64,000 nucleotides of DNA from Megalonaias nervosa. Taxonomy: Eukaryota > Mollusca > Bivalvia > Unionida > Unionidae. The position numbers were made by a program, and so were the translations under genes. Location: NCBI GenBank assembly GCA_016617855.1, contig JAECUM010001809.1, positions 79,691-143,690 of the forward strand, in the 5' to 3' direction. Below, piece after piece: positions 30,794-63,904 of this stretch. Numbering within the stretch: the first letter of the stretch is position 1; the number at the start of each line of letters is the position of its first letter. The notes under the pieces were generated by a model. It did not search any database. It saw only the letters and a program-made list of their open reading frames with translations, and was not told the DNA's origin.

Positions 30794-30809
30794 GGCCCTT
30801 TTCAGGGCC
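30794..30809 (+). promoter_or_regulatory. Histone-type 3' stem-loop 1
   Basis: GGCCCTTTTCAGGGCC: a six-pair stem and four-base loop that fits the histone mRNA consensus GGYYYUHHUHARRRCC exactly. It is followed by the canonical ACCCA, then at 30821-30832 by TCGAAAAGAGAT, which resembles the U7-binding histone downstream element. It lies just after the coiled-coil gene. Confidence 0.85.
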
Positions 30810-31029
30810 ACCCATCTCTCTCGAAAAGAGATAGTATTCATTTTGCCAAAATAATTTAAAACTCAAAATCCCTTTTTTGCCCATGATGGACGTGTGAGAG
30901 TACGTGAGTGTAGGTCCTTCTTCTAAAAAATCAAAACCAGGAGACACTTACGTTTTCTTTCTGTTATATTCTGGTACAAATGTACAATCCAATGCCACAA
31001 CACATCACTTTAAAAAGTTCATTAGCTTC

Positions 31030-31336
31030 TTTTTATTTTTGTCTTTTCACTCTCCCTGTTTTCTTTTTCTTTTTTTTTTTTTTTTTTTTTTTTTAATTTC
31101 TTCATTTTTACAAGTTTTCTTCTCTTCTTCCTCACTTTCTTCTCGTCTTCTTTTCATCTCTTTCTTGACGTGACTGGGTTCTTCCTTTTTGGAGGGTGCC
31201 TCTTCTTCCTGTTCTGAACCCCTCTCTCCCTCCTGCTCCTCTTGTTTCTTAGGGCAGTCTGAAGACTAATGTCCTTTCTCTTGACAATGATGAATGATCA
31301 CAGGTATCTTGACTTTTATCTCTTTTGATACCTGTC
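31030..31336 (-). pseudogene. Zinc-knuckle gene of older copy, 3' half
   Basis: Minus-strand counterpart of the gene at 33093-33557. It covers the Lys/Glu-rich tail and the region of the second CCHC knuckle, whose spacing is disturbed. It is severed at 31336; the 5' half lies at 51861-52037, 20.5 kb away. A T-rich expansion at 31069-31094 also interrupts the tail. Confidence 0.75.
31331..31336. repeat. Polinton target-site duplication, left
   Basis: CCTGTC, repeated at 51861-51866. In the uninterrupted zinc-knuckle gene (33093-33557) the matching sequence occurs once, as CTGGTC, supporting duplication on insertion. Six bp is the usual Polinton length. Confidence 0.85.
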
Positions 31337-31495
31337 AATAGTGTAGTGGAATGTTTTAGCGTTAATGGGACTTCCATGCAAAATACCCCCTGGGACACTT
31401 TGGCGTCACGATTTTTAGCGTCAAATTCACACCCTGGGACACTATAGCGTCAATGGGAATTTTGTATAGCGACAAGAGGAATGGAACAGGTGGGA

Positions 31496-31503
31496 TGACG
31501 TCA
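31496..31503. promoter_or_regulatory. TGACGTCA (CRE/ATF-type) site in left repeat
   Basis: Perfect 8-bp CRE palindrome. The same octamer is present in the right repeat (51694-51701) and upstream of the coiled-coil gene (32116-32123). Confidence 0.6.
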
Positions 31504-31679
31504 CGGTACTGGACACTTGTAACAATGTAGCAAGGGACTGACCAAAATACGCGCAGCTACCACTCTAGGGAGGGACAAATACAATAGAGAGACAGAGGCA
31601 TAGATAAACATATAGATAACACACACAGATGGGCAAATTTTTGAATAAATATAAATATCTTTTCGAGGCATATGAAAGT

Positions 31680-31695
31680 GGCCCTCAGAAGGGCC
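31680..31695 (-). promoter_or_regulatory. Histone-type 3' stem-loop 7 (minus strand)
   Basis: On the minus strand GGCCCT-TCTG-AGGGCC, then CCTCGAAAAGATAT (31655-31668) as downstream element. The last loop base is G where the consensus has A/C/U. It lies 27 nt after the stop of the gene at 31723-31956, inside the terminal repeat, and mirrors stem-loop 5 at the right end. Confidence 0.75.
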
Positions 31696-31722
31696 GTTGT
31701 TTGTTATGTTAACAACATTCCG

Positions 31723-31956
31723 TTAACATAGAGGGCATCGCATAGGTCTTCTTCTCTTCCTCAAACTTTGTCTAACCTCTGGTCCATAAATCAGGACTCG
31801 CTTCAGACAGCCTTGTCTCTCCAAATAGATCCTTCGTTTCCAAAGGGCTGTATCAATGATCTGGGTAATTGCCCATGATGGTCTGACATACATGGGATAG
31901 TCCGGGTTGAACAGCATCGACGATAGGAGGGTAGACAATTCTACGTTGGTCCACAT
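31723..31956 (-). CDS. Left-terminal small basic protein (outward-reading)
   Basis: 77 codons, intact. It opens MWTNVELSTLLSSMLFNPDY and ends in an Arg-rich segment (RQSLRKRRR) plus two cysteines. The start is chosen because ACAAGATG precedes it, as at two right-end genes, with a TATAAATA box about 45 nt upstream at 31999-32007. It reads toward the element's end and terminates just before stem-loop 7, mirroring the gene at 51256-51498. The basic tail would suit nucleic-acid binding; that is only inference, and no family is recognised. Confidence 0.6.
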   Translation of the reverse strand: MWTNVELSTLLSSMLFNPDYPMYVRPSWAITQIIDTALWKRRIYLERQGCLKRVLIYGPEVRQSLRKRRRPMRCPLC

Positions 31957-31998
31957 CTTGTGACGAGGAACAGGTGAAGGGAAAGAAGTGAACCGCGT

Positions 31999-32007
31999 TT
32001 ATTTATA
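31999..32007 (-). promoter_or_regulatory. TATA box of left-terminal gene
   Basis: CTATAAATA on the minus strand, about 45 nt before the ATG at 31956. Confidence 0.6.
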
Positions 32008-32115
32008 GTGGAAGACCGGATCGAAACGGATTGAAATTGTTCACCAATCCCAACACGCGCTACAAAATTCAGTCACTTCGCGGAGTCTGTCTTCCAATCC
32101 GAAGAGAGCTACCTG

Positions 32116-32123
32116 TGACGTCA
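32116..32123. promoter_or_regulatory. TGACGTCA site upstream of coiled-coil gene
   Basis: Perfect CRE-type octamer about 67 nt before the ATG at 32190, in the gap between the divergent gene pair. Confidence 0.55.
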
Positions 32124-32189
32124 CATTCCCATTGTAGGTGCGTTAGCGTCTGTGCGCAGTGAATCGATGCGACATTGTTTTGTGAAACA

Positions 32190-32815
32190 TGACGGAAACT
32201 AAGAAGACGATGAATTGGGGTGCACCGGCTTTGGAGACGAAAAGAGATGGCATAGCAGTGGCTATCAAAGTTAACACAGCGCTACTTCCTGAAGAGGTCG
32301 ATTTCAACTGAGATTTAGTAGATTTTCTCTCTTCGCAAGAATTTGTTCCAGTACCAGTACCTTCGCCGCCTCCTCCTTCTTTACCACAGGTCGAGGATTT
32401 TAAACAGAGACAGAAAGAAGAATTGGATAAATTTTTACAGCAGCAGAAAGAGGCAGAACAAGCATTTCTCCTTGAACAGCAACAGCGAGAAGAAGAGACA
32501 AGAAGGAAACGACAGGAAGAAGCAGCAGAGAAGAAACAAGATCTAGGAGAGAAGGAGAACAGTGAACCTAAAACGGTAACGGTACTCTTGGACATTTTGG
32601 CCGAGTTAAGAACTCTGAAACAAATGTATCAAACTTCTTTATTACGACCCAAGAGAAAAAGACCTTCCCGAGCCAAACAGTGTAACCCTGTTACTTCACC
32701 GGAGATACCACCCCTAGTGATTTCTACTAAATCATCGACGGGAGCAAGTCCAGAAGTAGGCCTTGGCCGTGGCAAAGGCTTAAGGCAGTTAAAGCTGATT
32801 GCTTCTCGTTCCTGA
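32190..32815 (+). pseudogene. Coiled-coil accessory gene (one in-frame stop)
   Basis: About 208 codons, starting MTETKKTMNWGAPALETK. The residues are: an N-terminal segment; a Pro-rich linker (PVPVPSPPPP); a Gln/Glu/Lys-rich coiled coil (residues about 70-130, QRQKEELDKFLQQQKEAEQ); the VTVLLDILAELRTLKQMYQT block; the basic RPKRKRPSRAK patch; and a Gly/Lys tail. One TGA near 32309 replaces a Trp codon of the paralogue at 30115. The frame is otherwise open to 32815, so the gene could work only with readthrough. The divergent neighbour is the left-terminal gene. Stem-loop 2 follows 34 nt later. No known family. Confidence 0.7.
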
Positions 32816-32849
32816 GTTTGTTCTAAGAAAAAAAAAACAAACACACAAC

Positions 32850-32865
32850 GGTCCTTTTCAGGGCC
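32850..32865 (+). promoter_or_regulatory. Histone-type 3' stem-loop 2
   Basis: GGTCCT-TTTC-AGGGCC with one U-G pair, then ACTCA and TTTCGAAAAGAGATG (32874-32888). The same TATTCAWTTTGCC block follows as after stem-loop 1. Confidence 0.85.
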
Positions 32866-33092
32866 ACTCATTTCTTTCGAAAAGAGATGATATTCATTTT
32901 GCCAAAATCAATTAAAACTCAAAAATCCCTTGTTTAACCCAATGATGTACGTGTGAGAGTGCGTGAGTGTAGACCCTTATTCTAAAAAATCAAAACCAAG
33001 AGACACTTATGTTTTTTTTTCAGTCTGGTCTATTCTGGTACAAATTTTTACAATCCAATGTCACAACACAAGACAACACTTTTTAAAAAAGT

Positions 33093-33557
33093 TCATAGAC
33101 TTCTTCTGTGTCTTTTTTCTTCTTTCACTCTCTGTTTTTTAAATTTCTTCACTTTCACAGTTTTTTCCTCCTCTTCTTGCTCACTTTTATCTCTTCTTCT
33201 TTTCTTTTCGGTCTTCTCTTTCTGAACGTGTCGGGGTCCTTCTTTTGCTGAGGGTACCTCTTCTTCTTCCTCCTCCTCCAGCTCCTGTTGTTTCTTAGGG
33301 CAGTCTGAAGACCAATGTCCTTTCTCTTGACAATGATAACAAGTATGTTGACTTTTGTCTCTTCTGACACTGGTCTTGCTTTTTTGACGGTCTTGACATT
33401 CTGTAGCCCAATGCACTTTCTTCTGACAGATATAGCAAGTATCTTGACTTTTATCTCGAAAGGAGGGGGAGTAGTCCGTCGGTTTGTCTGAAGAAAACTT
33501 TCGTATGACACCTCGCAAAGCTCTAATCAGAAGTTCGACCTGTGTGGGTTCTTCCAT
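33093..33557 (-). CDS. CCHC zinc-knuckle protein
   Basis: 154 codons, intact, minus strand. It starts MEEPTQVELLIRALRGVIRK. Two retroviral-type knuckles follow: CYICQKKVHWATEC (residues about 41-54) and CYHCQEKGHWSSDC (about 72-85), both C-x2-C-x4-H-x4-C. Then come an acidic run and a long Lys/Arg/Glu tail. Such knuckles bind single-stranded nucleic acid, so a genome-binding or packaging role is possible (inference). It is divergent from the polymerase, with TATATATAAA at 33611-33620 about 55 nt upstream. The older copy of this gene is the target into which the whole element inserted. Confidence 0.8.
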   Translation of the reverse strand: MEEPTQVELLIRALRGVIRKFSSDKPTDYSPSFRDKSQDTCYICQKKVHWATECQDRQKSKTSVRRDKSQHTCYHCQEKGHWSSDCPKKQQELEEEEEEEVPSAKEGPRHVQKEKTEKKRRRDKSEQEEEEKTVKVKKFKKQRVKEEKRHRRSL

Positions 33558-33610
33558 CGTGCTGGTCAGCTTGAGAGCGAAATGAATACTGAGAGGGAAG
33601 GTACCATCCC

Positions 33611-33620
33611 TTTATATATA
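33611..33620 (-). promoter_or_regulatory. TATA box of zinc-knuckle gene
   Basis: TATATATAAA read on the minus strand, 55 nt before the ATG at 33557. Confidence 0.6.
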
Positions 33621-33638
33621 AACTGAGCCTGACATGGA

Positions 33639-33644
33639 TATATA
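33639..33644 (+). promoter_or_regulatory. TATA box of polymerase gene
   Basis: TATATA about 50 nt before the ATG at 33693. Together with the box at 33611 it makes a compact divergent promoter. Confidence 0.55.
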
Positions 33645-33692
33645 GGGGACTATGGCGTTTCAAATGTAGTCATTTCACTTTTTGCAGTCAAG

Positions 33693-36600
33693 ATGAAACT
33701 ATCGCATCATTTCGTAAAGAAAGGAGAAGAAAGTAAGAGGCAGAAACGTGATTTATCGCCTCACACAGTAGCTGAAGTCTTAGCTCAAATTCATTCCAGC
33801 GATTTTGAAGATGAAATGAGTGAGCCACAATCCAGACCCAGAGAGTCTACACCAAGTCAAAGTCCATCACCACCAGTAAACCCTGAAAAGTATTACACAT
33901 TCGAGAGACGGACAAACGCTCCTCTAGAAAATTTAGAACTACAGCCTACACGTACAGGGTGAAGTTTAAAGATTTCAAGTCCGACTTACCACTGGAGAGA
34001 GCAGAAGGGTTCATCACTGATGTGTGGGATTCTTTGTTAACCACACTGAAACAGCAATGTGAAGCCAAAGAAGACGATCGCTTGAGACTTTCCATTCATC
34101 ACGACAATTTGAAGTCCCCAGTTTGGATCAAGTTTAGAAGCCCAGCAGAATTGACAGCTTCCAAAGTCATGCATAAGATTCAATACGTGCAACAATCCAA
34201 CGACAAGTTTCACATCACCGATGGAAAAGCGACACTGTTCATGACCCACGTGTCTCTTCCCCAAGGGACGGGACGCAAAAAGGTGTTATTGGTAGACAAC
34301 CTTCGCAGCACCAAAAAGAGTCTCGTCCAAATTAACAACCCTCAAGACAAGATGTGTTTAGCCCGTGCCATCGTGGTGGGACGAACGTATGCTGACAAGA
34401 ACGACACGGTAGAATGGAAAAGAGCCTGGAAAACTATTCAACAATCGGACCGAGCCAAACAACGAAGCGAAGCAGAACTCTTGTTACAGCAAGCGGGGAT
34501 ATCCAAAGACACCGCTTGTGGCATTCCTGAAATGCAAAAATTGCAAGACGTCTTAGCTCCACGCTACACGTTGAAAGTATACCCTCAAGAAGTGCGTGGA
34601 CCTCTGTTGTTTTGAGACAAAGATTTTAAAGACGGAAAATACATTCACATCTATTATCACGATGAACATTTTGATGCCATTACCTGTATCACCGGTTTCC
34701 TAGGACACGGTTATTACTGTGAGAAATGTGACTATGGCTATAACAATCGAAAGCAACACAAGCGTTGTGGATCGAAATGCTCAGGATGTTTAGCCTCTAA
34801 ACCCTGTCTGGACCAAGGACAAGAACGCGTGCATTGCCCAGCTTGTCAGTGCACGTTTGTCAGCCCTTTCTGTTACCAACATACCTAAAGACGCGAGGGT
34901 CACAGCAGAAATGTGATTGTCCACTCCTGAGATTGTGCCCTACTTGTGGACAAGGCATACGCACTAACAATGCCAAGGCACACGTCTGTTCAGGAAAGAA
35001 GCGATGTCACATTTGTCGCCAAATCGTAGACTTGGGACACCAATGCTACATTCAAAAATACCAATCCAAACATGAAGAAGAAGATAATGACCAGAAGAAA
35101 GGCAATTTCATTTTTATCGATTTCAAATGCATGCAAGAGACTGGCATTCACATTCCTAATTTCTGCGTGGCTCACCGAGCATGTGAGAAGTGCATCCAAG
35201 AGCCTATCTTTACTCATTGCCCTTACTGTAGCAAGATTCCTGGAGGACGTGAAAAAATCTTTCGGGGACCGAACACGCTACCCGATTTCGCCCAATGGAT
35301 CTTAGACCCCATCGACGAGACGTGAAGCCAAGAAGACACCGAACGTTACGGAGATTGTCATCCCCATGCCACGGTGATGGCTCACAATTTCTCGGAATAC
35401 GATGGACAGGTTCTTTTTGAGATACTATACGGAACAAAGTACCGAACGTCCGAAAGTGACTTTGAACGGAGGCAAAATCATTTCCATGCAAGTGGGTCAA
35501 GTGCAGTTTAAAGATTCGATGAGTTACTTGGCCATGCTTTTGAGTCGCACGCCTAAAACGTTTGGAATGACAGAAATGGCCAAAGGCTATTTCCACACTT
35601 TTTCAATACCGAAGCCAATCAACACGCCGTTCTGCCCCATTTGCCTGAGGCTCACTACTACGACCCCGACGACGTGGGTACCGAACGACGAGAAGTTTTC
35701 TACGCTTGGTACCAGACTCACGCCTCGGACCCCTTCGACTTTCAGGAAGAAATGTTAAAATATTGTCGTTCCGACGTGGACATTTTACGGCGTTGCTGTG
35801 GAATATTTCGAGAACTGTTCATGGAGCACGGAGGGATCGATCCTTTGAAAGAGGCTTGCACCATTGCCAAGGTATGATCCTTAGTGTACAGCCAACGATT
35901 CATGCCCGAAAACACTCTGGCTGTCATAAGTCCTCAAACGACGAACTTTGTCAAACGTCGATACTCGGTCAAAGCCCTATGCTGGTTACATTACTTGTGC
36001 GACAAGGAAGACAAATGGATCCAACATGCCCGCAACGGAGGAGGCGAAAAGACCCTCGGAAGGTACTCGGTGGATGGCTGGGACTTAGAAAACCCTCAGA
36101 TCGTGTACGAGTTTAACGGGTGCTTATTTCACGGATGTCCGATCTGCTACCCTTAACGTGACACTAAAAATCAGTTTTTACAACGGACCATGAAAGACTT
36201 GTACCAGGCCACTTGTCAGCGGCGCTTGAAGTTAGAACAGAAAGGATACTAAGAGGTAGAAATGTGGGAACACGAGTACGATCACCGTTTGAAAACCGAT
36301 CCCGAGTTGAAGCGCATCGTGGAAAGTTACAAGATGGTGGATCCACTGAACCCAAGGGACAGTTTGTACGGAGGACGGACGAATGCCACCTGTTTGCTGT
36401 ACGAAGCCGGCGAAGAGAAAGGAGAGGAAATCAAATACTTGGACGTGTGTTCTCTGTATCCGTACGTGTGCAAATATTGTCACTTTCCCGCAGGGCACCC
36501 GCAATTGCTAACGGAACACATCGACCTGGAAAACATTTGACAATACGAAAGATTGATCAAATGTAAAGTCTTGCCTGCCACGTACTTGTACCATCCCGTT

Positions 36601-37691
36601 TTACCTCACCATTGCCAAGGAAAACTGATGTTTCCCTTGTGCCGTACTTGTGCCGAAATGTGCAACCAAGAACAACCTTGTCAGCACACACAGGAAGAAC
36701 GCGCCTTAACGGGAAGGTGCGTCAGAGTGGAATTGTTTAAAGCTCTGGACATGGGATACCAACTGTTAGAAGTGTACGAAATTTACCACTTTCCCAAGAC
36801 AGAAAGATACCACAAGGGTGACGAGACTCAAAAAGGCATTTTCGCAGACTACGTGAATGCCTTTTCGAAACTGAAACAAGAAGCTAGTGGCTATCCTTCC
36901 TGGTGCGACACTCCCGAAGACCAAAAGAAATTCAAAGAGAAATACTGGGAGCAGGAAGGCATCACTTTAGACCACATCGAGAAAAAAGAAGGCGATCGTT
37001 TGCCAAAGTGATGTTAAATTGCTTTTGGGATAAAATGGCAGAACGACCGTGTTTACCGAAGTCGGAGTATTTGACAGAACCTTCTCGCTACTTCCAGATG
37101 ATTCACGACAAAACTAAATACATGAAACACGTGGACGTCCTTCGTGAGGACTTGATCTTAGTCAATTACGAAGAAGAACTGGACTTTGTAGAAGCCGACG
37201 AATTTGGAAATGTCATCATTCCGGCTTACGTGACAGCCCATGCTCGCTTAAAACTGTACGAAGCTTTAGAACTGTTAGGAGATCGTGTGCTGTATTTTGA
37301 CACGGACAGTTGCATCTACATCGATCGCCTGGGTCAACCTCACCCTGTCATCGAAGGAGACCGTTTAGGAGCCTGGACGGACGAGCATCCCGACGACAAG
37401 ATTCTAAGTTTTGCAAGTGGCGGTCCCAAAAATTACGGCTACGAATACCGTGACCCTCAAGGAGAAGTGTACACCGAGTATAAAGTGAAAGGAATGACTC
37501 TCATTTATCGCACCAGTCGACTGGTAAACTTTGGCGTCTTGAAAGAAGCCTTGCAGTCTGGAGAGGATGGAAATTTTAAAGTAACCACCCACGAACCGCA
37601 CAAGTCTATCAAATCGTATACCAAATGCGAGTGCGGCTTCCAAACCACTTCACTTTACCATACGCACACGTCGATATTGGTTAGCATATAA
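33693..37691 (+). pseudogene. polB: Protein-primed DNA polymerase B (pPolB), broken
   Basis: Polinton-type replicative polymerase with N-terminal 3'-5' exonuclease. Visible parts are: a Ser/Pro-rich head from the ATG at 33693; the N-terminal domain (33959-34615); Cys-rich zinc-ribbon segments (34720-35030); an Exo I region reading FIDFKC where DxE is expected (35118-35132); Exo II AHNFSEYDG (about 35380-35410); Exo III YCRSDVDIL (about 35760-35786); polymerase motif A DVCSLYP (36440-36465); and motif C YFDTDS (37294-37311). Breaks include a one-base loss near 33895 seen against the older copy, a TGA at 34613-34615 where the older copy has CGA, and further stops or shifts near 34886, 35323, 35400, 35640, 35875, 36156, 36250, 36538 and 37010. 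Non-functional. Confidence 0.9.
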
Positions 37692-37692
37692 G
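37687..37692 (+). promoter_or_regulatory. TATA box of BIR gene
   Basis: TATAAG 58 nt before the ATG at 37750, overlapping the end of the polymerase frame. Confidence 0.5.
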
Positions 37693-37749
37693 AAGGGACA
37701 ACGTCCAAGACCAATAGTTTATTGTCACTACCAACACCAAGCAAGAAAG

Positions 37750-38784
37750 ATGAATCCTTTCAAACAGCAAGTATCAAGCGTAAGACTCAAGTCCAACGAG
37801 AAACTCGAGTACGATACTATGCCTTGCGATGGCAGGGATGCCGTACGCTATGACCTCAGCGATTCAGTATCACATCATGGGAATTTTTCTATGACTAGAC
37901 CTACCATGGAAAGTGATGCTGTGCGTGTCAAACTTAACGGATGCGAAAGCGATGCCACTCGTTATCGTACTCCTTTTCACTTTACTGATTTTCATGGTGG
38001 ATGTCATCATTATGAAGCCATGAGGCTACCATCCTACGGATGTCATGCAATTCTGAACACACTCCTGCATATTTCACCATACCCTCATCGAAATGAACCT
38101 GTGAAAGACGAATATTCGTTCCCTGTGCGTTTGCCTGAATACTGCTACTTTGAAAGTCGGATCCAAACCTTCCGAGGAAAATGGCCAAAATATCTGGGAG
38201 GACCTACCCCTGAAGAATTAGCTAGAGCCGGATTTATATACTTGGACGAAGGGGATAAAGTCAAGTGCTTCAGTTGCGGTGTGTCACTTCACGAGTGGGA
38301 GAAGAAATATTGCGCTTACCTGGAACATACTCGATGGTCTCCAGATTGTCACTACCTACCTTTAGTGGGACCTCGTCATTGAAGTGGGCATACCATTTCG
38401 TGTAAGAAACCAGCTACGTGGCTAGGAGTCAAACCCTGGACAACACCTAGACAAGTATTTAAATCCCATTGGAAAAAGAATCTTCAAACATTACCAAACA
38501 AATTGCAAGAGAAGATCTACAAGGACATTTGGCAGGGACTTGCCAGAACCAAATCTCAATTAGTGACTGTAGAACTTTTGTGTCGAGAAATTCACAAGAG
38601 GAAATTGACAAAAGTCAACAAACAAGTCAGATTTCTCTGGATCAAATGTGCGTTCATCCAAATATTCCGCTTTAGACCATTTACATTTGAAGATTTTATT
38701 GACATTCTTGACCGATTCCTGGATTGGCAGTGGTCAGAAATTAGTCACTATGTTCGTTACTTTCGCTCTAGGAGAAGTGTTTGA
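37750..38784 (+). CDS. BIR-domain (IAP-like) protein with helical extension after an in-frame TGA
   Basis: 210 codons from 37750 to a TGA at 38380-38382. The same frame then stays open for another 134 codons to 38784 with no ATG, so this is one long gene with a single stop or readthrough. Residues about 135-205 form a BIR fold: RIQTFRGKWP, GPTPEELARAGFIYLDEGD, the zinc ligands CFSC, then H and C in HTRWSPDC. BIR proteins of viruses and hosts bind caspases or IAP partners and restrain cell death. The downstream part has an F-box-like LPNKLQEKIYKDIW stretch. The N-terminal 130 residues are unrecognised. No RING is seen. Confidence 0.8.
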
Positions 38785-38789
38785 CTGAC

Positions 38790-39014
38790 ATGGTCATGGA
38801 TACTTTACAAGAGAACATTTGCAGTTTGCCTGTGGAGTTGAGAGAACGCATTTACCGCGAGTTGGTCAAAATACAAGTGAAACTCAAACTCAAAATCATT
38901 TCTCCATTTTTAAACTATGCTCTTTTCCAAAGGAAGCGAAGTCTGATTATGGGAGAATACTACTTCAATCACAAATATAAACGAGGATATTGGCCACGAC
39001 CCAGTGATTCCTGA
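38790..39014 (+). CDS. Small helical protein with LP-x-EL-x-IY motif
   Basis: 74 codons, intact, from an ATG at 38790, five bases after the previous frame ends. Residues 11-25 (SLPVELRERIYRELV) resemble the F-box start pattern and also the LPNKLQEKIYKDIW segment in the C-terminal extension of the BIR gene just upstream. The two probably share descent. Basic and helix-rich; too short for a full F-box plus substrate domain. Function unknown. Confidence 0.5.
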   Translation: MVMDTLQENICSLPVELRERIYRELVKIQVKLKLKIISPFLNYALFQRKRSLIMGEYYFNHKYKRGYWPRPSDS

Positions 39015-39057
39015 TTCTTATTACCTTACACCTAAGAGGGTATAAAAACAGACTACC

Positions 39058-39527
39058 ATGCCACGACCTTTATCATTCGTGATACAACAGATTCCGTGGA
39101 AGGAAATCAATGACATTATTCAAACGGTGTAGGATTACGATTGCCTATTACGAGAACTGTGTCCATTGAATTGGGGTTGACGTGTAGTGTGTGTCTTAGT
39201 GACTTGCTTTCTGGGATTTCGTTTACTAGCCGATTCCTTGTGGACTCTTTACGAACAGTACATACCACCCAAAACACGAAAGTGGTCCCTTTAAATGTAC
39301 ACGAGAGACTCATTCTGCTCAAAGCTTTGCGCTTTCATCTTGATACTTCTCAACCTCTACGGGAAAACAAGATTCGTCAACTTTTAGGCACTGAAGATGT
39401 GTACGACGATGTGTGTGTAGCTTGTGACTTACACCCTCACTGGAAAGATGTACTTGAGGGGAAAAGTTGGGGTTTTGAGGCTTGGACAAAAGAAGTGGCA
39501 CACTATGCCCAAGATCTGTCGTCCTAA
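39058..39527 (+). pseudogene. Unrecognised Polinton gene, broken
   Basis: A start at 39058 (MPRPLSFVIQQIPWKEIND) runs to a TAG at about 39130. A different frame is open from about 39141 to 39527 and carries paired cysteines (CSVCLSDLL and VCVACDLHPHW), possibly a metal site. TATAAAAA at 39043-39050 is too close to the first ATG to be its promoter, so the true start may be lower. Frame breaks mean it is probably dead. The end overlaps the next gene. Confidence 0.45.
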
Positions 39528-39870
39528 AAAATTAAAACGTTCAGTGAAAAAAGTAACTTTTAAACCAGTGTTAATGACAGTACCAGAAGAAGAAGAAGTC
39601 GTGACCGAGGAAAACCACATTCTTCAGGACAGGACCGTTATCGACATCTCCGAAAGGCCACTCCGGGAGGACTCTTGTGTGACTGTGCCAAGGAGTGTAG
39701 AGACTCTAAGAACATTACACACTACCCCTACGATTTCACCTCTTGATCACCACAAATGTTGTACAGAGACTTGTTTATATTCCACTATGATCGTTTTGAT
39801 GTGTCTTTTATTCATGTACTTAACCATTTGGCTTTTATATATTTTTGTCTTTCGTGTTGTTCACAATTAA
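39505..39870 (+). CDS. Small single-pass membrane protein
   Basis: 121 codons, intact, from an ATG at 39505 that overlaps the previous frame by 23 nt. It has a basic start (MPKICRPKKLKRSVKKVTFK), an acidic Ser/Thr-rich middle, and a C-terminal hydrophobic helix (…STMIVLMCLLFMYLTIWLLY…) followed by a short tail, suggesting a C-terminal membrane anchor. AATAAA at about 39879-39884 would serve as an ordinary poly(A) signal. Membrane proteins of this size are common next to the packaging genes of Polintons, but no named family is claimed. Confidence 0.6.
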   Translation: MPKICRPKKLKRSVKKVTFKPVLMTVPEEEEVVTEENHILQDRTVIDISERPLREDSCVTVPRSVETLRTLHTTPTISPLDHHKCCTETCLYSTMIVLMCLLFMYLTIWLLYIFVFRVVHN

Positions 39871-39900
39871 AGATGAGAATAAACTTGTCCTGAAAAAAAG

Positions 39901-39907
39901 TATAAAA
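39901..39907 (+). promoter_or_regulatory. TATA box of packaging ATPase
   Basis: TATAAAA 57 nt before the ATG at 39958. Confidence 0.6.
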
Positions 39908-39957
39908 ACTCTTGTCTTGTTTGTCTTCGTGTCAAAAGTGACATTTCTCACACTACT

Positions 39958-40683
39958 ATGGCTACCTCTACTGTCTCTGCTACCTCCTCCACTGTCAAAG
40001 TCATTGACGAACACGTAGATCGGACTAGCTGGGAGGCCTTGTATCTTAGCCATCCCTTTAACATGCTCATTGCCGGACCTAGCGGTTCAGGCAAAACCGA
40101 ATTTGTCAAACGTTTGATCGAACATAAACATCATTTGATCGATCGTCCACCTCAACGAATCGTGTGGTGTTCCAAAGAGTGGCAATCGGCGTACAGCCTT
40201 CTGCGAGAAAGTCAAGGCGATTCCATCGTCTTTGTGGAAGGCATTCCTGGCGAAGACGACGGAATCGTGTCTGACCCTAGGCAAACTCATTTGGTTATTT
40301 TTGACGACATGTTAGGAGAAGACGAAGAAGAAATTAAACTCTGGTTTACGCGCAAAGGGCATCATCGTAATACCAGTGTCATTTACATTACCCAAAATTT
40401 GTTTCAACAAAGTAAAGCCCATCGTACCATCAGTCTCAATGCTCATTACGTAGTGTTGTTTAAAAGCCCTAGAGATAAATCGCAAGTGCAAGTCTTAGCC
40501 AAACAGTTAGGAACGCCTTGGCTGACTTATCCGTACGATGATGCCACTAAAACCCCACACGCTTATTTACTAGTGGATTTAAAACCCACCAATCCCGATT
40601 ATTTGCTATTTCGTACCCATCTGTTTCACCAAAGGTGCCAAGACGGAGGGCCTGTCGTGTACACGTCCCCTTCGTCGACTTAA
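39958..40683 (+). CDS. HerA/FtsK-type genome-packaging ATPase
   Basis: 241 codons, intact. Walker A is GPSGSGKT (residues about 40-47) and Walker B is HLVIFDDM (about 110-117). A following ITQNLFQQ stretch fits the sensor region of the FtsK/HerA packaging family (A32-like) found in Polintons and adintoviruses. The length is normal for Polinton ATPases. It would drive DNA into preformed capsids. It is one of the few core genes here with no break, although all intact frames may simply be shorter targets for decay. Confidence 0.95.
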   Translation: MATSTVSATSSTVKVIDEHVDRTSWEALYLSHPFNMLIAGPSGSGKTEFVKRLIEHKHHLIDRPPQRIVWCSKEWQSAYSLLRESQGDSIVFVEGIPGEDDGIVSDPRQTHLVIFDDMLGEDEEEIKLWFTRKGHHRNTSVIYITQNLFQQSKAHRTISLNAHYVVLFKSPRDKSQVQVLAKQLGTPWLTYPYDDATKTPHAYLLVDLKPTNPDYLLFRTHLFHQRCQDGGPVVYTSPSST

Positions 40684-40710
40684 CAACAATCACAATCACC
40701 AAAAAAAGTC

Positions 40711-40718
40711 TATAAAAA
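40711..40718 (+). promoter_or_regulatory. TATA box of gene at 40756
   Basis: TATAAAAA 45 nt before the ATG. Confidence 0.6.
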
Positions 40719-40755
40719 CCTCGGTTACTTTGGCTCTGTCTCACACAGCGTCAAC

Positions 40756-41445
40756 ATGACGTCCCTTCAGTCTCACCTTCCCATCAAATTGATTCGTGCC
40801 CTGTACAGTATCAGTCGCGAAAAAAATCCACAAATACGTGCTCGTGTCTTAGAAGCTAGTCTCAAAGAAGTCTTACGATGGTTTACGGTGACAGCACGTC
40901 AATTACTGCAAGTCATCATTCAGATTCCACATCAAACCAAACTTTGTTTTGAGAGAAACAAAGTAGCCTTGACGCAACAAGCCGCTCCTCGCACTGACAC
41001 TCAAATCAAAAAGCAAATCATTTTGAAACCTGGAGGAAGCGGTTCTCTAGGAGGTGTCATCATTCGTTCCCTCTTAAAATGGGATCCTAACGCTCCCAAA
41101 GTCGTCCCCAAGAAAAAAAGCCACGCCCAAACGTACCCAGAAGAAAAAGAAAAAGAGCAACGGTGTCAAGACCAGGTCACAGCCTCAGAAAAAAAGAAAA
41201 GTCCACAGAAAACAGCTTCTACCCACAAGGGAATGTCTCCCAAAACTTCTCCTCCAGCGGTGACACCCTCTTCCTCTTTGGCGGCAGTGGCCGCTTCTCA
41301 GAAAGTACCTGCCCCCAAAATCAAAGTCCAAGAGAGAACGGGTGTGTTACAGAGTTTACTGGATTTGTCCAAGCAAGAACTGTCCCGATTTAGTCCATTG
41401 CGAACTCCTCCACGACGTGTGTTGCCTGTCATCAAGTTGATATGA
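40756..41445 (+). CDS. Basic, Ser/Pro/Lys-rich protein, unrecognised
   Basis: 229 codons, intact. The helical N-terminal third (IKLIRALYSISREKNPQIRA…VLRWFTVTARQLLQVIIQ) is followed by a Gly-rich turn (KPGGSGSLGGVIIRSLLKWD), a long Lys/Ser/Pro-rich disordered segment and a short conserved-looking C-terminus (FSPLRTPPRRVLPVIKLI). It lies between the packaging ATPase and the small basic proteins, so a virion or DNA-binding role is plausible from context only. No family recognised. Confidence 0.6.
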   Translation: MTSLQSHLPIKLIRALYSISREKNPQIRARVLEASLKEVLRWFTVTARQLLQVIIQIPHQTKLCFERNKVALTQQAAPRTDTQIKKQIILKPGGSGSLGGVIIRSLLKWDPNAPKVVPKKKSHAQTYPEEKEKEQRCQDQVTASEKKKSPQKTASTHKGMSPKTSPPAVTPSSSLAAVAASQKVPAPKIKVQERTGVLQSLLDLSKQELSRFSPLRTPPRRVLPVIKLI

Positions 41446-41476
41446 CGCAAAGACAATCAGTGGCGACGCATTCCAG

Positions 41477-41484
41477 TATAAAAA
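41477..41484 (+). promoter_or_regulatory. TATA box of gene at 41539
   Basis: TATAAAAA 62 nt before the ATG. Confidence 0.55.
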
Positions 41485-41538
41485 AAACCGGAGGCAAACA
41501 ATACGGAACAGTGTTTTTGTGCTGCTAAACGCCCAAAG

Positions 41539-41775
41539 ATGTCCCCTCCAAGAAGTACACACCGTTACCATCATGTTTCTTCTTCGGTCCAAAAAGGAAA
41601 AGGTAAACGAAAAAGACAGTCACGTCATCCTAAAAAGCGCTTAGCCAAACATCGACGTCACCCCCAGAAGAGACACACTCGTCCAAAGAAAACAAGTAAC
41701 AACCAAAAGGGAGGATTTGATATGGTACTTGTCAAAGGGATTGTTTTTACAAGATTCTACCGAAAAGAAATATAA
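41539..41775 (+). CDS. Small Arg/Lys/His-rich protein, duplicate 1
   Basis: 78 codons. The first 52 residues are extremely basic (SSVQKGKGKRKRQSR… then KKRLAKHRRHPQKRHTRPKK), like protamine or adenovirus core protein. It is repeated nearly intact in the next gene at 41825-42016, so this is a tandem duplication. The C-terminal 26 residues after KKTSNNQKGG differ from the duplicate and include a hydrophobic stretch, possibly from a frame change. Condensing virion DNA is a reasonable inference from composition. Confidence 0.6.
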   Translation: MSPPRSTHRYHHVSSSVQKGKGKRKRQSRHPKKRLAKHRRHPQKRHTRPKKTSNNQKGGFDMVLVKGIVFTRFYRKEI

Positions 41776-41778
41776 AAG
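41771..41778 (+). promoter_or_regulatory. TATA box of gene at 41825
   Basis: TATAAAAG 54 nt before the ATG, inside the end of the preceding frame. Confidence 0.55.
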
Positions 41779-41824
41779 GACGTATGTCGAGCCATGGATG
41801 TCAGTGTATGTTGTACACCAAAAG

Positions 41825-42016
41825 ATGTCTCCTCATTGTCGTTCTTCTGTCCAGAAAGGAAAAAGAAAAGGAAAAAGACAGTTTCGTCATCCGAAAAAAC
41901 GCTTAGTGAAACATAGACGTCACCCCCAGAAAAGACACACTCGTCCAAAAAAAAGAGGAGTGACCAAAGAGGAGGATTCTTTGGCGATTTTGGAAAACAC
42001 ATCGTCACTTTTATGA
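41825..42016 (+). CDS. Small Arg/Lys/His-rich protein, duplicate 2
   Basis: 63 codons. The ATG at 41825 is chosen because AAGATGTC matches the start of duplicate 1. SSVQKGKRKGKRQFRHPKKR and the following KHRRHPQKRHTRPKK repeat the basic core of duplicate 1; the tail (EEDSLAILENTSSLL) is acidic and different. An ATG at 41794 in another frame gives only a short peptide. Confidence 0.55.
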   Translation: MSPHCRSSVQKGKRKGKRQFRHPKKRLVKHRRHPQKRHTRPKKRGVTKEEDSLAILENTSSLL

Positions 42017-42093
42017 CGAAGCGATAGTCCCCAAAAAAGATTAAAGGACCGTGTGACAAGTCATCGACGTTAGCGTCTTTTTTGCTGTGTGCC

Positions 42094-42496
42094 ATGGAAC
42101 CAATGAACCAACCGAGAAAGATCTCACCCCAAAAAAGACATTTCTCTTCTACCCCCAAAAGGAAAGAAAAGGAAAGGACTGCCACCTCGTTTAGCCAAAC
42201 ATTGGGACATGTTGTCCGTCCTGTCCAAAGCTTCTCCACCCATGCGAAAAAAATTCATTTAAATTGACTCCAAAGACGTCATCGATACCGTGTGCGAATG
42301 TTGTCTGAATGTCTTGAAAGGCACAATACCTTTGTCTAAACACCAGAAAAAATGCTTAGCCAAACATGGACACGTTCTTCGCCAAATGGTACAAAAGAAA
42401 ATACCCATTGGTCAAAAGAAAAAGATGTTCATGCAACGCGGAGGAATTTTGCCCTTTTCGCCCATGTTGCTGAAAGGAATAATGGGAACTATATAA
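42094..42496 (+). pseudogene. Polinton conserved small basic protein (core-protein-like), frameshifted
   Basis: It starts in one frame (MEPMNQPRKISPQKR, 42094-42267) while the conserved part is in another (about 42160-42496, with a TAA near 42262), so at least one frameshift lies between. The conserved part reads VCECCLNVLKGTIPLSKHQK and, further on, KKKMFMQRGGILPF. I recognise this pattern as a small protein in many invertebrate Polintons: Cys pair, LKG.IPLS, and a C-terminal QRGG plus hydrophobic Gly-rich tail. The tail recalls adenovirus core peptides. A TAA at 42494 falls in TATATAAGG, and similar hydrophobic sequence continues beyond it. Confidence 0.6.
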
Positions 42497-42621
42497 GGAC
42501 CCTTGCTGAAAGGAGTTTTGGGAACGATGGGAAACATCCAGCGAGGATAAAGATAAAAAGTCCGAGAAGATAAAAGGGACCTTTGAAGTCAAAAGATCTC
42601 AGATGCGATCCTTGAAATCCG

Positions 42622-43365
42622 ATGGAAGGACGAAAACTGGCTTTAGTGCCTTCCAAACGATGGATGGAATACCATCGTTGGCAACAACAACGAACCCCAC
42701 ATTTACCTCCCAATCCTCATTTGACCGAGATGTCCCAGTTACAACACGAATTGCAATCATTGATGGATCGCAGTGATTTGTCAGAAACGTAAAAATCTCA
42801 ACGGTACGGTCAGTTGTTGCAATGACTGCAACTCTTTCACCAGAAAGCTTTAGATGAAACAGCTCTACCCACTCTGAAAGATTTTAAGGCCTTGATGAAA
42901 AGTCCATCACCAAGACTACCACCACCACCACTAGCCCCAGTAATCAAGACAGAAAGTCAACCACCACTAGTCCCAGTGATCAAGCCAGAAAAAGAAGAAG
43001 AGCTTCAAATTCCACCAGAAAAAGGATGCAAGTTAACAGCACCACCTACATCCAGAATTAGTTGGATTAAAAAGATGATGGCTACCTCTTCTTCCTCAGA
43101 AGAGAAAAAGAAAGAAGGGAAACCAGAAGTAAAACAAGAACTGATTACTCCAGTTCAGAGATCTTCCTCCTCGACACCTATCGCTCGTCAGACACGTAAA
43201 GCATTACAATCTAAGAAAATACCACACGAAGAAAAGAGAAGCATCAGTGAAGAGTGGATCACTTATAAAAAAAAAGGACAAGGTGTTAGCCAGCATTTAC
43301 TTCAATCCATCCCATCCTGCAGGTTACGGAGGAGTTCAGAAATTGTATCCTTCTGCCAAAACTAG
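42622..43365 (+). pseudogene. Polinton pre-integrase protein, two internal stops
   Basis: It starts MEGRKLALVPSKRWMEYHRW at 42622. The same frame runs to 43365 except for a TAA at about 42790 and a TGA at about 42823. The KLALVP start and the later ELQSLM / YGQLLQ helices resemble a protein that precedes integrase or capsid genes in other Polintons (recalled, not checked). The middle is a Pro-rich linker (PRLPPPPLAP…), then a Lys/Ser-rich part ending EEWITYKKK at an A9 run (43267-43275). Beyond that run, integrase sequence continues in a different frame. Confidence 0.55.
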
Positions 43366-44378
43366 ACTGAAAAGTGTACGTTTACCTCAAGTGCAATGCT
43401 GGTTACAAGACCAAGCACGTACACCTTCCACAAACCCATTCGACGAAAATTTTCCAGAATTCGCACCCGAGTGCAGGGCATCGATCATCAATGGCAAGCC
43501 GATTTAGCTGATGTCTCTCATTTGGCCACCTACAATCGTGGTTACAAACACTTGTTTTGTGTCATCGACGTCTTTTCCAAATTTGCTTGGGTCATACCAT
43601 TGACTTCCAAATCGAGCAGTGAGTTAGTCCGAGCCCTCAAACTGGTGTTGAAACAAAGTGGGCGTCACGCTCTTCGATGGCAAAGTGTAAAGCCACCGAA
43701 TTTTTGAACCAAGCTTTCCAAAAAGAATTGAAGAAACATGACATTCATTTTTTCAATACCGAGAATCCCGAAACCAAAGCCAGCATCGTGGAACGTTTTC
43801 AACGCACTTGAAAGAACGCATGTGGAAATATTTTACACATCAACACACTCTCAAGTACATCGAAGTCTTGCCACATCTCGTCCAATCGTACAACCAATCT
43901 TACCATCGGAGCATCGGATATGCCCCCCAAGATGTGACTCCCGACAACGAAGTGACCGTCTTCGAACGCCTGTTTGGTCCGTTCCCAACAGTGACTGTCC
44001 CCAAGAAAGGTGAAGTGTTGGCAGAAGGAGATTGATGTACATTGGCAAACCAAACGCACTTTCGACAAAGGTTACTTACCCAACTGGACCACCGAATTGT
44101 TTCGTGTCACTGAACGTGTGCGTGGTCGTCATCCTCCGGTCTATAAATTGGAAGACATGAACGGGGAAGTGTTTAAAGGAATGTTTTACTTGCCCGAGTC
44201 ACAACGTGTGACCAAAAAAGAAGACGACGTGTACGAGATCGAAAGAATTCTCGATCGAAGAACCAGAAATGTGGGAAAACGACGTGTCAAAGAAGTCAAA
44301 GTACATTGGAAAGGATATCCTCCCAGTTTTGACTCTTGCATCGACGCTTCGCAAATCATCGACTATAAAAAGAAGTGA
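43265..44378 (+). pseudogene. Retroviral-type integrase with chromodomain, broken
   Basis: The N-terminal part reads YFNPSHPAGYGGVQKLY (about 43290-43345), typical of Polinton integrases. The rve core shows the first Asp in WQADLADVS, the second in VIDVFSKFAW and the Glu region near ASIVERF (about 43786). A helical part follows (VQSYNQSYHRSIGYAPQDVT), then a C-terminal chromodomain (YEIERILDRRT…KVHWKGYPPS, 44229-44345). The frame changes near 43430, 43690, 43808 and 44030, so it is dead. It would have catalysed insertion with the 6-bp duplication seen here. The chromodomain is a known Polinton feature thought to guide target choice. Confidence 0.9.
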
Positions 44379-50482: not shown

Positions 50483-50539
<57 letters not shown>

Positions 50540-50810: not shown

Positions 50811-50836
50811 CAGTGAGTGTAAGGGATGCTTTCGTT

Positions 50837-50904: not shown

Positions 50905-50909
50905 ACAAG

Positions 50910-51221: not shown

Positions 51222-51255
51222 GGATTACAACAATTAAAAAAAAGCAGAAGACAAG

Positions 51256-51498
51256 ATGAAAAACGTAATGGAAGAAGAGGTAAAGAAAATAAAAGACATC
51301 TGGACAAGAGAGAGAAAGGAAAAAGAAAACAGAAAGAGAAAAGAAGAGTTTGAAAGACTAAATCAAAACTGGATGAAAATACAGCAAAAATTTAGAGCTA
51401 TGGGACACCCAGACTGGATACCAGAAGAAGAAAATAAGAAGAAGAAGAAAGGAATCATTGGAAAATTAAGAAGCTGGTGGAAGAACTGGAGAAAATAG
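51256..51498 (+). CDS. Right-terminal small basic helical protein (outward-reading)
   Basis: 80 codons, intact. It starts MKNVMEEEVKKIKDIWTRER in the same ACAAGATG context. Lys/Glu/Arg-rich helix, then GHPDWIPEEENKKKKKGIIG and a Trp-rich end (LRSWWKNWRK) that could lie on a membrane or nucleic acid (inference). The stop precedes stem-loop 5 by 14 nt, a typical histone 3'UTR distance. It mirrors the outward-reading gene at the left end. Confidence 0.65.
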   Translation: MKNVMEEEVKKIKDIWTRERKEKENRKRKEEFERLNQNWMKIQQKFRAMGHPDWIPEEENKKKKKGIIGKLRSWWKNWRK

Positions 51499-51512
51499 AA
51501 AAAAAACCCAAA

Positions 51513-51528
51513 GGCCCTTTTCAGGGCC
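51513..51528 (+). promoter_or_regulatory. Histone-type 3' stem-loop 5
   Basis: CCCAAA-GGCCCT-TTTC-AGGGCC-AC: this copy also has the canonical upstream CCAAA. CCTCGAAAAGATAT follows at 51540-51553. Located at the inner edge of the right terminal repeat. Confidence 0.85.
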
Positions 51529-51693
51529 ACTTTCATATGCCTCGAAAAGATATTTGTTCAAAAATTTGCCCATCTGTGTGTGTTATCTATATGTTTATCT
51601 ATGTCTCTGTCTCTCTATTGTATTTGTCTCTCCCTAGAGTAGCTGCGTATTTAGGTCAGCCCTTTGCTACATTGTTACAAGTGTCCAGTACCG

Positions 51694-51701
51694 TGACGTC
51701 A
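51694..51701. promoter_or_regulatory. TGACGTCA site in right repeat
   Basis: Perfect counterpart of 31496-31503. Confidence 0.6.
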
Positions 51702-51860
51702 TCCCACCTGTTCCATTCCTCTTGTCGCTATACAAAATTCCCATTAACGCTAAAGTGTCACAGGGTGTGAATTTGACGCTAAAAATCGTGACGCCAAAGT
51801 ATCCCAGGAGGTATTTTGCATGGAAGTCCCATTGACGCTAAAGTATCCCACTACACTACT

Positions 51861-61800: not shown

Positions 61801-62665
61801 CAAAGCCACCAAATATGTAAACAAATTGGAACAGGAGAATAAACTAAAAACATACATTTCAATGGACATACTCGACACCTACTCCAGTTTCGTTAAAATA
61901 TACACTGATGGATCTAAAGCACCAGAGCCACCCAAAACATCAGCAGCAGCAGTGGTAATCCCAGAACTCAACATACAAATGGGAACCAGATTACTATACC
62001 ACTGCTCTACATACACAACTGAATTCTGGGCTATCAATGAATCATTAAACTGGGTCTTAGAAAACAACATCCCAAAAGCAGTAATCATTAACGACTCCCT
62101 TAGTGTAATAACATCAATAAAAACAAATAACACTAAATCAGGAGAAACGTTCCTTGCCAGGACTTACCACCTGCTTAAAGAACTATCCACCAAAAACCAA
62201 ATCGTGGAATTTGTGTGGATATCATCGCATATAGGAATCCCTGGCAACGAACAGGCGGATAAAGTCGATAAAAGTAAATTAGGAGACCCTAACCCGGCTC
62301 CACTAAAATATAGCATCACAAAAGCCCAAAGCTTAGTTAAAACATACATTAACAATAAGTGGCAGGAATACTGGAATGCTACCCCCAGGGGCAGAAAGTT
62401 ATATTCCACCCTTAAGGGAGTAAATAGGTCCATTAAACCACCCAAGGTTAACAGCTCGGACCAAAATATTATAAATCGAATTATGACGGGCAAAACAAAA
62501 CTAGTAGGCAGCTTTGGTAAATATTTAGGACCAAAACCCTCTAACATAAACTGCTACCACTGCCGCACCATAGAAGACCTCCTTCATATTTTCAATAACT
62601 GCTCTAAACATCAGTTAGCCAGAAATAATTCCAAAGCGCACAAAAAGAAATTGGATCCCCAATAA
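58885..62665 (+). pseudogene. LINE ORF2: endonuclease, reverse transcriptase, RNase H
   Basis: Starts MDSTIKKDLTIWQWNCRGL. Endonuclease motifs WNCRGL, LQEKHL, GDFK (expected GDFN) and GSDHFP (59600) are present, but a (GTGG)n expansion at 59365-59401 shifts the frame. RT motif A is FLDLEKAFD (about 60730), motif B STPQGSVLS (about 60900), and motif C FAHDG where FADD is expected (about 61000). RNase H shows TDGS, E in TTEFWAI, D in NDSLS and D in NEQADK (61900-62260). A C-terminal CYHC…H…C motif lies at about 62551-62610. Stops and shifts near 59800, 60050, 60240, 60410, 60650 and 61636 make it inactive. Confidence 0.9.
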
Positions 62666-62891
62666 CATATCAAGAGTTCCTAGACAAAAACAATAACAAC
62701 TTAAATACAACCAATATAATATCATAAAATACCTAAATGAAACCGGGCTAAAAGAAAAAATTTAATGCCCCATTAATATACCTTGCCAGGCAAAAAACAA
62801 CGCTAACTAAGAACTAAAAAGCACATCCCAAATGCGCAATAAATCAATCAGAACCAAATTTATATTACAAAATGGCATAACCACTGGATAG

Positions 62892-63056
62892 GTGTCTTTG
62901 ATATGTCAAACAGGGACCTGGTTATTCAGCAAAGACACTTGTCCTCCCCCAAATCAACGCCATACGCATAACTAAGTTAAACACAAAATCGGCTCAACCA
63001 TGGGATGGACGTCTTTGATACATCAGCTCGGGACCTGATTATTCAGCAAAGACGTC
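62892..63056 (+). other. Twin 3'UTR hairpins of the LINE
   Basis: GTGTCTTTG…CAAAGACAC (62892-62938) and GACGTCTTTG…CAAAGACGTC (63008-63056) enclose similar loops containing GGGACCTGRTTATTCAG. The stems differ by compensating changes, which argues for RNA structure. They lie at the LINE 3' end, where the reverse transcriptase would bind its template. Confidence 0.7.
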
Positions 63057-63259
63057 TGTCCCCTTTCATAAAATGAAAAGCCTAAACTAAACTAAACCAC
63101 CACCTAAATCAAACTCTATTTAAAATAAATATCTTATACCTCTATCCCCCCTTTCTTCTTCCACCTCTTGCTTTTTACCAAATAACTTGCTAACCGACTC
63201 ATCCTTTAACCCATCCATTCTATTTACTTTCAACCAAGAGATAACAGTCATCCCAATAG

Positions 63260-63904
63260 AATAAGGGAGTCCGAATACCAGGACCATCAGGACCCGCCAC
63301 ACAAGGCGACTACGTAATCAGATTAGAAAAGAACAATAGGGCCCCAAATAGACAATATAAGGTGGTCAAAAAGTCCAATGACCATCAGGCCCCGCTGCAC
63401 AAGGAGGCAAAAACTAATCTACGCAAAGTGATCGGTCCCAATGATAAAATTGCAAGAGGTGGTGAGGAAATGTTGGTTAGGATGCAGTTTGGGGCTTATA
63501 GCCCACATAGATTGGCCATGGAGATCAATAATTATAAGAAAGGGAAAGACATATTAAAGGAGGTGATAAAACAGGAAAAGGAGGAACAGGAAGAAATAGA
63601 CGACAAAGAGAGAATGAGATTATGGAATGAGAAGATGGAAAAAGAAGAAGAAAATGAGAAGAGGAAGAAAGAGGAAGAGGAGGAGAAGAAACAGGAGGAT
63701 GAGAGGAAGAGGAGGAGAAGAAACAGGAGGATGAAAAGAATGAGAAGAAGAAGAAAAAAATGTCATGCAAAAATTGAGGTAATGGTGGACAAGAAGAAGA
63801 AATTAAAAGAAAAACCCAAAGGCCCTTTTCAGGGTCACTCCATTGCCTCGAAAAGATTTTTACTTTCTTGCCTAAAATATTTTTTGTTTTACATACAAAA
63901 TGGT
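63260..63904 (+). pseudogene. Charged terminal gene fragment ahead of stem-loop 6
   Basis: An open frame without ATG begins after a TAG at 63257: GDYVIRLEKNNRAPNRQYKV, HRLAMEINNYKKGKDILKEV, then a long Glu/Lys/Arg run (RKRRRRNRRMKRMRRRRKK). The N-terminal part has more ordered sequence than the other terminal genes. The frame does not stop before stem-loop 6 and reads through it to about 63904. A transcript processed at the stem-loop would therefore lack a stop, so the gene has either lost its stop or is only a remnant. Its 5' end is lost at the LINE junction. Confidence 0.5.
63821..63836 (+). promoter_or_regulatory. Histone-type 3' stem-loop 6
   Basis: CCCAAA-GGCCCT-TTTC-AGGGTC-AC with one G-U pair, then CCTCGAAAAGATTT (63846-63859). 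Same arrangement as stem-loop 5. Confidence 0.8.

Follow-up and report, generated by a model that had tools for sequence, protein, structure and literature searches.

Polinton transposons in the unionid bivalve Megalonaias nervosa raise the question of how some of their genes end: in a 64,000-nucleotide stretch of contig JAECUM010001809.1 (the window), several of these genes are followed by hairpins that resemble the 3′ ends of histone mRNAs. Processing of 3′ ends by a stem-loop, the stem-loop-binding protein (SLBP) and the U7 small nuclear ribonucleoprotein (snRNP) is established in animals, as described in two reports (PMC9756948, PMC1924863). We conclude that, very probably, the accessory genes of these Polintons carry the complete histone-type 3′ processing signal and are processed through SLBP and U7 into mRNAs without poly(A). 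A first-pass annotation, made from the sequence alone, had proposed such 3′ ends, and they are strongly supported by a covariance model and by paralogous copies, and further by genome counts with zero controls, by the signal of a host H2A gene and by a host SLBP domain. To our knowledge, replication-dependent histone genes are considered almost the only genes with a histone 3′ end.

The window was searched with the Rfam Histone3 covariance model (RF00032; gathering score 34), with E-values computed for 64 kb against 4227 families. All seven sites listed in the first-pass annotation are matched at 24.3–38.0 bits (E-values from 1.6e-7 to 0.02), two of them reaching the gathering score, and the positions and strands given for them are all correct (Table 1). 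The signal consists of an A-rich 5′ flank, a 6-bp stem, a loop of UUUC/UYUC type, a cleavage region mostly beginning with AC and a purine block of GAAAAGA type. This block, which had been placed downstream of each hairpin, is present at 7/7 sites, 13–15 nt past the stem; the flanks are also as described, with CCAAA at two sites and ACCCA at one. Among 110 hairpin-like rows (window rows included) the block starts 13–15 nt past the stem in 99, and the 11 rows without it at that distance include some evident chance rows. The search pattern GGYYYTTTTHARRRCC, with a narrower loop than the GGYYYUHHUHARRRCC of the annotation, fits three window sites against a mean of 0.03 over 100 shuffles. The hairpins had been said to fit the broader pattern or to differ from it by one compensated or loop base. 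The four sites outside the narrower pattern depart from it in different ways: at 49269 both sides of the first pair are changed to give A–U, pair 2 of 63821 is a G–U wobble and not a compensated change, and 31680 has two loop changes. The 50197 stem has a compensated A–U first pair and, in addition, a C in the loop.

The signals at 31680 and 51513 sit in one inverted-repeat pair, so that these two sites are not independent. Their position within terminal inverted repeats (TIRs) is also what would be expected if the palindromes worked as DNA, when the element is replicated, excised or packaged. We consider this most unlikely, since the coiled-coil and cassette signals lie about 1–2.5 kb internal, six of the seven sites come after the stop of a same-strand open frame and the seventh (63821) after a decayed one, and the asymmetric purine block and the A-rich flank have been retained. 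At 63821, one reading frame continues without a stop across the hairpin; another, similar to the inner element's right terminal gene, contains stops, the last of them about 14 nt before the stem.

The seven sites had been treated as parts of one element. They are instead distributed over two nested Polintons, B lying inside an older A. Five sites (31680, 32850, 49269, 50197 and 51513) belong to B and 30794 to the outer element A, of which the 63821 signal is probably also a part. B is bounded by a 6-bp target-site duplication (TSD), CCTGTC, at 31331–31336 and 51861–51866. The flanks of the insertion are contiguous in copies such as L009 (blastn breaks at 31331/51864), and the zinc-knuckle and polymerase region of A picks up again past 51866. 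B has the TIRs and the 6-bp TSD of a Polinton, and it has protein-primed DNA polymerase B (pPolB), integrase, ATPase and protease genes, with the rve and Peptidase_C5 matches below cut-off. It thus shares with other Polintons/Mavericks the TIRs, the TSD, a type B DNA polymerase, an A32-like ATPase, a chromodomain integrase and a weak match to the adenovirus-type protease, and it differs from them in its histone-type 3′ ends, known here from one host genome. Both Polinton copies are degraded: the frames of the polymerase and major-capsid genes of B are broken, the coiled-coil gene has an in-frame stop in both A and B, and the right-end gene of A is interrupted.

The signal is maintained in thousands of copies across the host assembly (2.19 Gb, 54,709 contigs). 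Exact matches to GGYCCTTTTCAGGGCCAC..GAAAAGA (the standard stem) number 2,995 + 3,145 = 6,140, and those to the cassette type with an A–U closing pair and purine block number 2,103 + 2,195 = 4,298; these are counts of related copies. The half-compensated stem (counted as AG..CC, not as GG..CT) occurs 110 + 79 = 189 times, 23 times more rarely than the 4,298 compensated AG..CT stems. The reversed control gave 0 matches for each of the three patterns. Among the first 100 standard-stem matches listed there are 40 same-contig pairs, of which seven diverge at 1,185–1,213 bp, 11 diverge at 19.3–20.3 kb and six lie on the same strand at 18.1–19.0 kb, the other 16 being outside these classes; the equivalent distances in Polinton B are about 1.2, 19.9 and 18.7 kb. 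The spacings of the genomic sites therefore repeat the Polinton anatomy, and the random occurrence elsewhere in the host genome that the annotation had named as evidence to the contrary was not what was found.

A genome-wide Histone3 search gave 75 scored matches, 66 over cut-off, and 68 of the 75 places were retrieved for comparison (L001–L068, in sets of 8, 20 and 40). With repeats and the long interspersed element (LINE) excluded, the Polinton parts of the window are matched by 64 of these loci over 50 nt or more, and by 61 of them over 150 nt or more; in tblastn searches with five typed histones, 0/68 match. Some loci look like near-duplicates (e.g. L029/L030 and L065/L066). The four without a match to the Polinton parts are L023, L039, L042 and L058. 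By reading, L023 contains an ORF (open reading frame) end like that of the left terminal gene. The Histone3 matches at L039:2083–2128 (42.0 bits), L042:1998–2043(−) (41.9 bits) and L058:1981, some with a purine block and some lacking one, resemble neither the Polinton parts of the window nor the typed histones and would represent further lineages of Polintons or host genes of another kind.

As the loci were chosen for strong hairpins, gene copies that had been retrieved through a different hairpin were counted apart. Their own hairpin is in place in 35/41 (coiled-coil 14/14, left terminal 14/17, cassette 1 1/1, cassette 2 6/7 and right terminal 0/2), while copies retrieved through their own hairpin (18, 20 and 14) all carry it by construction. 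In the wider count the hairpin is found in 33/33 copies of the coiled-coil class, with 13–16 of the 16 letters and all six pairs intact in 26/33, and in 34/37 left terminal, 1/1 cassette 1, 6/7 cassette 2, 14/16 right terminal and 1/1 A-type right copies. Conservation for the left terminal, right terminal and coiled-coil classes is 0.97, 0.93 and 0.95 in the stem-loop, 0.91, 0.87 and 0.91 in the purine block and 0.90, 0.80 and 0.94 in the upstream 70 nt; at 70–150 nt past the stem start it is about 0.49, about 0.50 and 0.77. Base pairing was surveyed in 96 sites, those of the window among them, that retain 12 or more of the 16 letters; poorer sites were left out. The 96 sites contain 57 stem pairs unlike those of GGCCCT/AGGGCC, 41 of which still pair; among the 23 distinct hairpins, 19 of 32 changed pairs do so.

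The host genome itself contains the signal. Searches for histones gave 18 loci (L069–L086), one of which (L072) holds an H2A gene with a complete open frame and stop, followed after 41 nt by GGCCCTTTTCAGGGCC and then by AGAAAAGA (37.8 bits). An H2B match (L069) has GGCCCTTTTCAGGGCC and then GTAAAAGA (30.7 bits); no stop precedes this hairpin, so that the locus may not be intact. In L074, an interrupted H2B, the stem has one broken pair, and the hairpin of L085 is, by reading, of the Polinton type. The other 14 loci from the histone searches, L080 with its almost complete H4 match among them, have no hairpin, and several are pseudogene-like. The RNA-binding domain of host SLBP (PF15247) was found over cut-off in two pieces on contig C954 (67.6 and 39.5 bits). 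At the L072 hairpin, 1318(−), the purine block is followed by TTGATTGCC, which resembles the TTCA..TTGCC block of the Polintons; such a block may be an additional element of the signal in the host.

The close likeness to host H2A, which includes the TTGCC block past the purine element, would also fit a signal that was taken once from a host histone 3′ end and then carried passively by copy amplification, with no current function; the relatedness of all copies, which denies the counts the standing of independent events, points the same way. This account appears improbable to us. By reading, the gene classes share the stem, the purine block, the TTGCC block and little else. The closing pair of the cassette class is doubly changed and yet paired in thousands of copies, with the half-changed form so much rarer, and conservation in the terminal classes falls past the purine block.

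Compared with metazoan replication-dependent histone 3′ ends, the Polinton signals have the same stem, loop, A-rich 5′ flank and purine element at 13–15 nt, and the terminal and coiled-coil genes have the same short stop-to-stem distance. They differ in that the bearers are Polinton accessory genes and not histones, in number (about 10,400 exact matches to the patterns, as opposed to a handful of matches to host histones in the same assembly) and in the A–U closing pair of the cassette class. From this likeness we infer cleavage, ends without poly(A) and U7 pairing at the Polinton signals: RNA polymerase II would transcribe the hairpin-bearing genes, host SLBP would bind the hairpin, the purine element would pair with the U7 snRNP, and a cut made by the histone cleavage complex a few nucleotides past the stem would give an mRNA without a poly(A) tail.

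Hairpins at gene ends are also known in relatives of Polintons, the polyadenylation signal of mimivirus and its Sputnik virophage being the example described in PMC6723459. The hairpins here could by analogy mark polyadenylated 3′ ends read by a viral or other activity, their likeness to histone signals being convergent. The two systems have in common the gene-end hairpins and the related virus group; the mimivirus/Sputnik signal is, according to that source, a polyadenylation signal specific to the giant virus, whereas the Polinton signal matches that of the host histones in sequence and purine block. We judge a polyadenylating hairpin very unlikely, because what is conserved here, and common to host H2A, is a stem, loop and flanks of histone type with a spaced purine block. 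The Polinton hairpins stand at the ends of only some genes and fit the histone model. In a collection of viral contigs the hairpin patterns gave 0 and then three matches, none with GAAAAGA at 13–15 nt (two have GGAAAAGC nearer to the stem), and these are probably due to chance.

The hairpin carriers in B are the left terminal, coiled-coil, cassette 1, cassette 2 and right terminal genes, together with two genes of A. The polymerase, BIR (inhibitor of apoptosis), ATPase, integrase, putative capsid, zinc-knuckle and protease ORFs of B have no hairpin within 500 nt downstream, as judged from one copy with one pattern. Across the hairpin-like rows, the terminal and coiled-coil-like ORFs stop 14–47 nt before the stem (by reading; many other rows have broken frames), and cassette ORFs 1 and 2 of the window stop 158 and 149 nt before their respective stems. 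The annotation had set the hairpin genes against a protease gene and a small membrane-protein gene with AATAAA. An AATAAA is indeed found 53 nt past the protease stop and 7 nt past that of the membrane ORF; the contrast as a whole is not clean. Polyadenylation of the remaining genes is suggested by AATAAA for two ORFs only.

The annotation had proposed that this lineage times a class of its genes to host S phase. Such a restriction would be expected from the way SLBP and histone mRNA are usually controlled. SLBP is usually abundant in S phase, and the element could be replicated at the same time. We infer, more weakly than the processing itself, that expression of the hairpin genes is concentrated in S phase. 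Tentatively, and with slightly less than even confidence, we suggest that the genes of these elements form two 3′-end classes, the core genes ending in the usual way and the accessory genes having histone-type, S-phase-restricted ends, and that the elements, which bring about ten thousand such signals into one host genome, may also draw SLBP and U7 away from the histone genes. A narrower, overlapping form of the proposal does without cell-cycle timing: SLBP and U7 would serve only as a poly(A)-independent means of finishing, exporting and translating short intronless mRNAs, for example in the germ line or the embryo. The signal is complete and host-like, and the promoters have TATA-like boxes and a CRE-like (cyclic-AMP response element-like) TGACGTCA with no conserved E2F site seen, all of which this form accommodates; in most somatic cells, however, SLBP and the stability of histone-type mRNAs are tied to DNA replication. 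It is a possible explanation, though not one that we would call probable. The region at 31998–32190 between the left terminal and coiled-coil genes is a short divergent promoter, in which TATA-like boxes and the CRE-like motif are kept in most of 34 aligned rows; no E2F site was noticed in it across these rows.

Several observations weigh against histone-type processing or its S-phase timing. The genome pattern counts represent related copies and not independent events. L001–L068 were chosen for high Histone3 scores, so that their conservation is partly selected, an effect that the 41-copy test lessens and does not remove. At the coiled-coil gene the hairpin (0.95) hardly stands out from the upstream coding sequence (0.94), and some stems have decayed, alongside others with wobble and compensated changes. 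A host histone match is accompanied by a hairpin in only three of the 18 histone-search loci, one of them with the broken pair. A search of the host genome for U7 snRNA with RF00066 gave no match, which does not show its absence. With a U7-like pattern there were 24 matches, against 26 in the control; none of the four inspected was U7-like, and one of these lies, by reading, within a Polinton integrase. Poly(A)-type signals also occur near hairpin genes: an AATAAA at 51288 lies 66 nt past the cassette 3 stop, within the next ORF, and an ATTAAA lies 95 nt past the coiled-coil stop, downstream of the hairpin. Most core ORFs have neither AATAAA/ATTAAA nor a hairpin within 500 nt. An E2F-like motif upstream of cassette 2 in the window is not conserved in six aligned rows. 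Finally, the ATPase and polymerase pieces found no relative outside this genome in the viral contigs collection.

No publication joining Polintons and SLBP was found in a literature search whose coverage excluded most subscription papers; the novelty of histone-type 3′ ends in Polintons is likely, not proven. If the proposal is true, these elements would exemplify, in nature, the viral capture of SLBP/U7 processing, which would serve genes other than histones at thousands of loci. Through them one could study the timing of Polinton genes and, as an experiment set up by nature, the response of a host to SLBP sites added in the thousands. They also advise caution in annotation, as the highest-scoring Histone3 matches of a genome are not necessarily histone genes.

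Table 1. Features of Polintons A and B in the window, with Histone3 (RF00032) scores of the stem-loops
Feature	Position	Strand	Histone3 score (bits)	Remarks
Stem-loop (30794–30809) + purine block after coiled-coil gene of A	30794..30835	+	34.3	ACCCA flank
Stem-loop after left terminal gene	31680..31695	−	33.2	27 nt past stop; purine block 15 nt past stem
Stem-loop (32850–32865) + purine block	32850..32889	+	29.5	34 nt past coiled-coil stop
Compensated stem-loop AGCCCTTTTCAGGGCT (49269–49284) + purine block	49269..49308	+	28.7	
Compensated stem-loop AGCCCTTCTCAGGGCT (50197–50212) + purine block	50197..50236	+	24.3	
Stem-loop (51513–51528) + purine block	51513..51553	+	38.0	CCAAA flank; 14 nt past stop
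Stem-loop (63821–63836, one G–U pair) + purine block	63821..63861	+	28.9	CCAAA; decayed right-end gene, probably of A
Polinton B, about 20.5 kb, inside A	31337..51860			Ends, inverted repeats, TSD
Left TIR of B	31339..31699			94–97% complementary to 51509–51858; inner edge carries the 31680(−) signal
Right TIR of B	51509..51858			Inner edge carries the 51513(+) signal
Coiled-coil gene of A, stop-interrupted	30141..30770	+		Paralogue of 32243–32815
Left terminal outward-reading gene, about 77 amino acids from ATG	31723..31956	−		ORF
Coiled-coil gene of B	32312..32815	+		In-frame stop directly upstream of 32312
Type B DNA polymerase in pieces, broken frames	34801..37691	+		DNA_pol_B_2 33.3 bits (one piece), above cut-off; phrog_1907 E 5.6e-18 (another piece)
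ORF with BIR domain	37750..38382	+		73.7 bits
Packaging ATPase, Pox_A32-like	39958..40683	+		32.8 bits
Retrovirus-like integrase in pieces	42895..44378	+		rve 27.1 bits, below cut-off; Chromo 30.9 bits, above
Putative minor + major capsid genes, major in pieces	44788..47479	+		Named by position and size only
Protease	48058..48573	+		Weak Peptidase_C5, 16.9 bits, below cut-off
Right-end cassette 1	48838..49110	+		Frame uncertain; another open frame stops 42 nt before stem
Right-end cassette 2, coiled-coil-like ORF	49538..50047	+		Stop 149 nt before stem
Right-end cassette 3 (50826–51221) + right terminal outward-reading ORF (51238–51498)	50826..51498	+		

Neither the left terminal nor the coiled-coil gene of B has a match in Pfam or PHROGs, and profile searches matched no capsid family to the capsid ORFs. 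The right terminal ORF has a basic C-terminus with a tryptophan. A promoter-like block that combines a TATA-like box with a motif of the CAGTCTGGC type occurs at 48771–48833, 49535–49597 and 50823–50885, directly upstream of each cassette. This triplicated block is probably a shared promoter, so that the ATG within it, although listed as the beginning of the ORF, is probably not where the gene truly starts. A non-LTR (long terminal repeat) retrotransposon at 56420–62665, with reverse transcriptase and RNase H domains and a 21-nt tandem repeat at 58180–58557, lies between the 63821 gene and what remains of the polymerase of A (51859–53176). At 29214–29322 there is a near-perfect 52-nt inverted repeat with a 5-nt spacer; its microRNA-like score is below curated thresholds, and it is probably a small inverted-repeat transposon.

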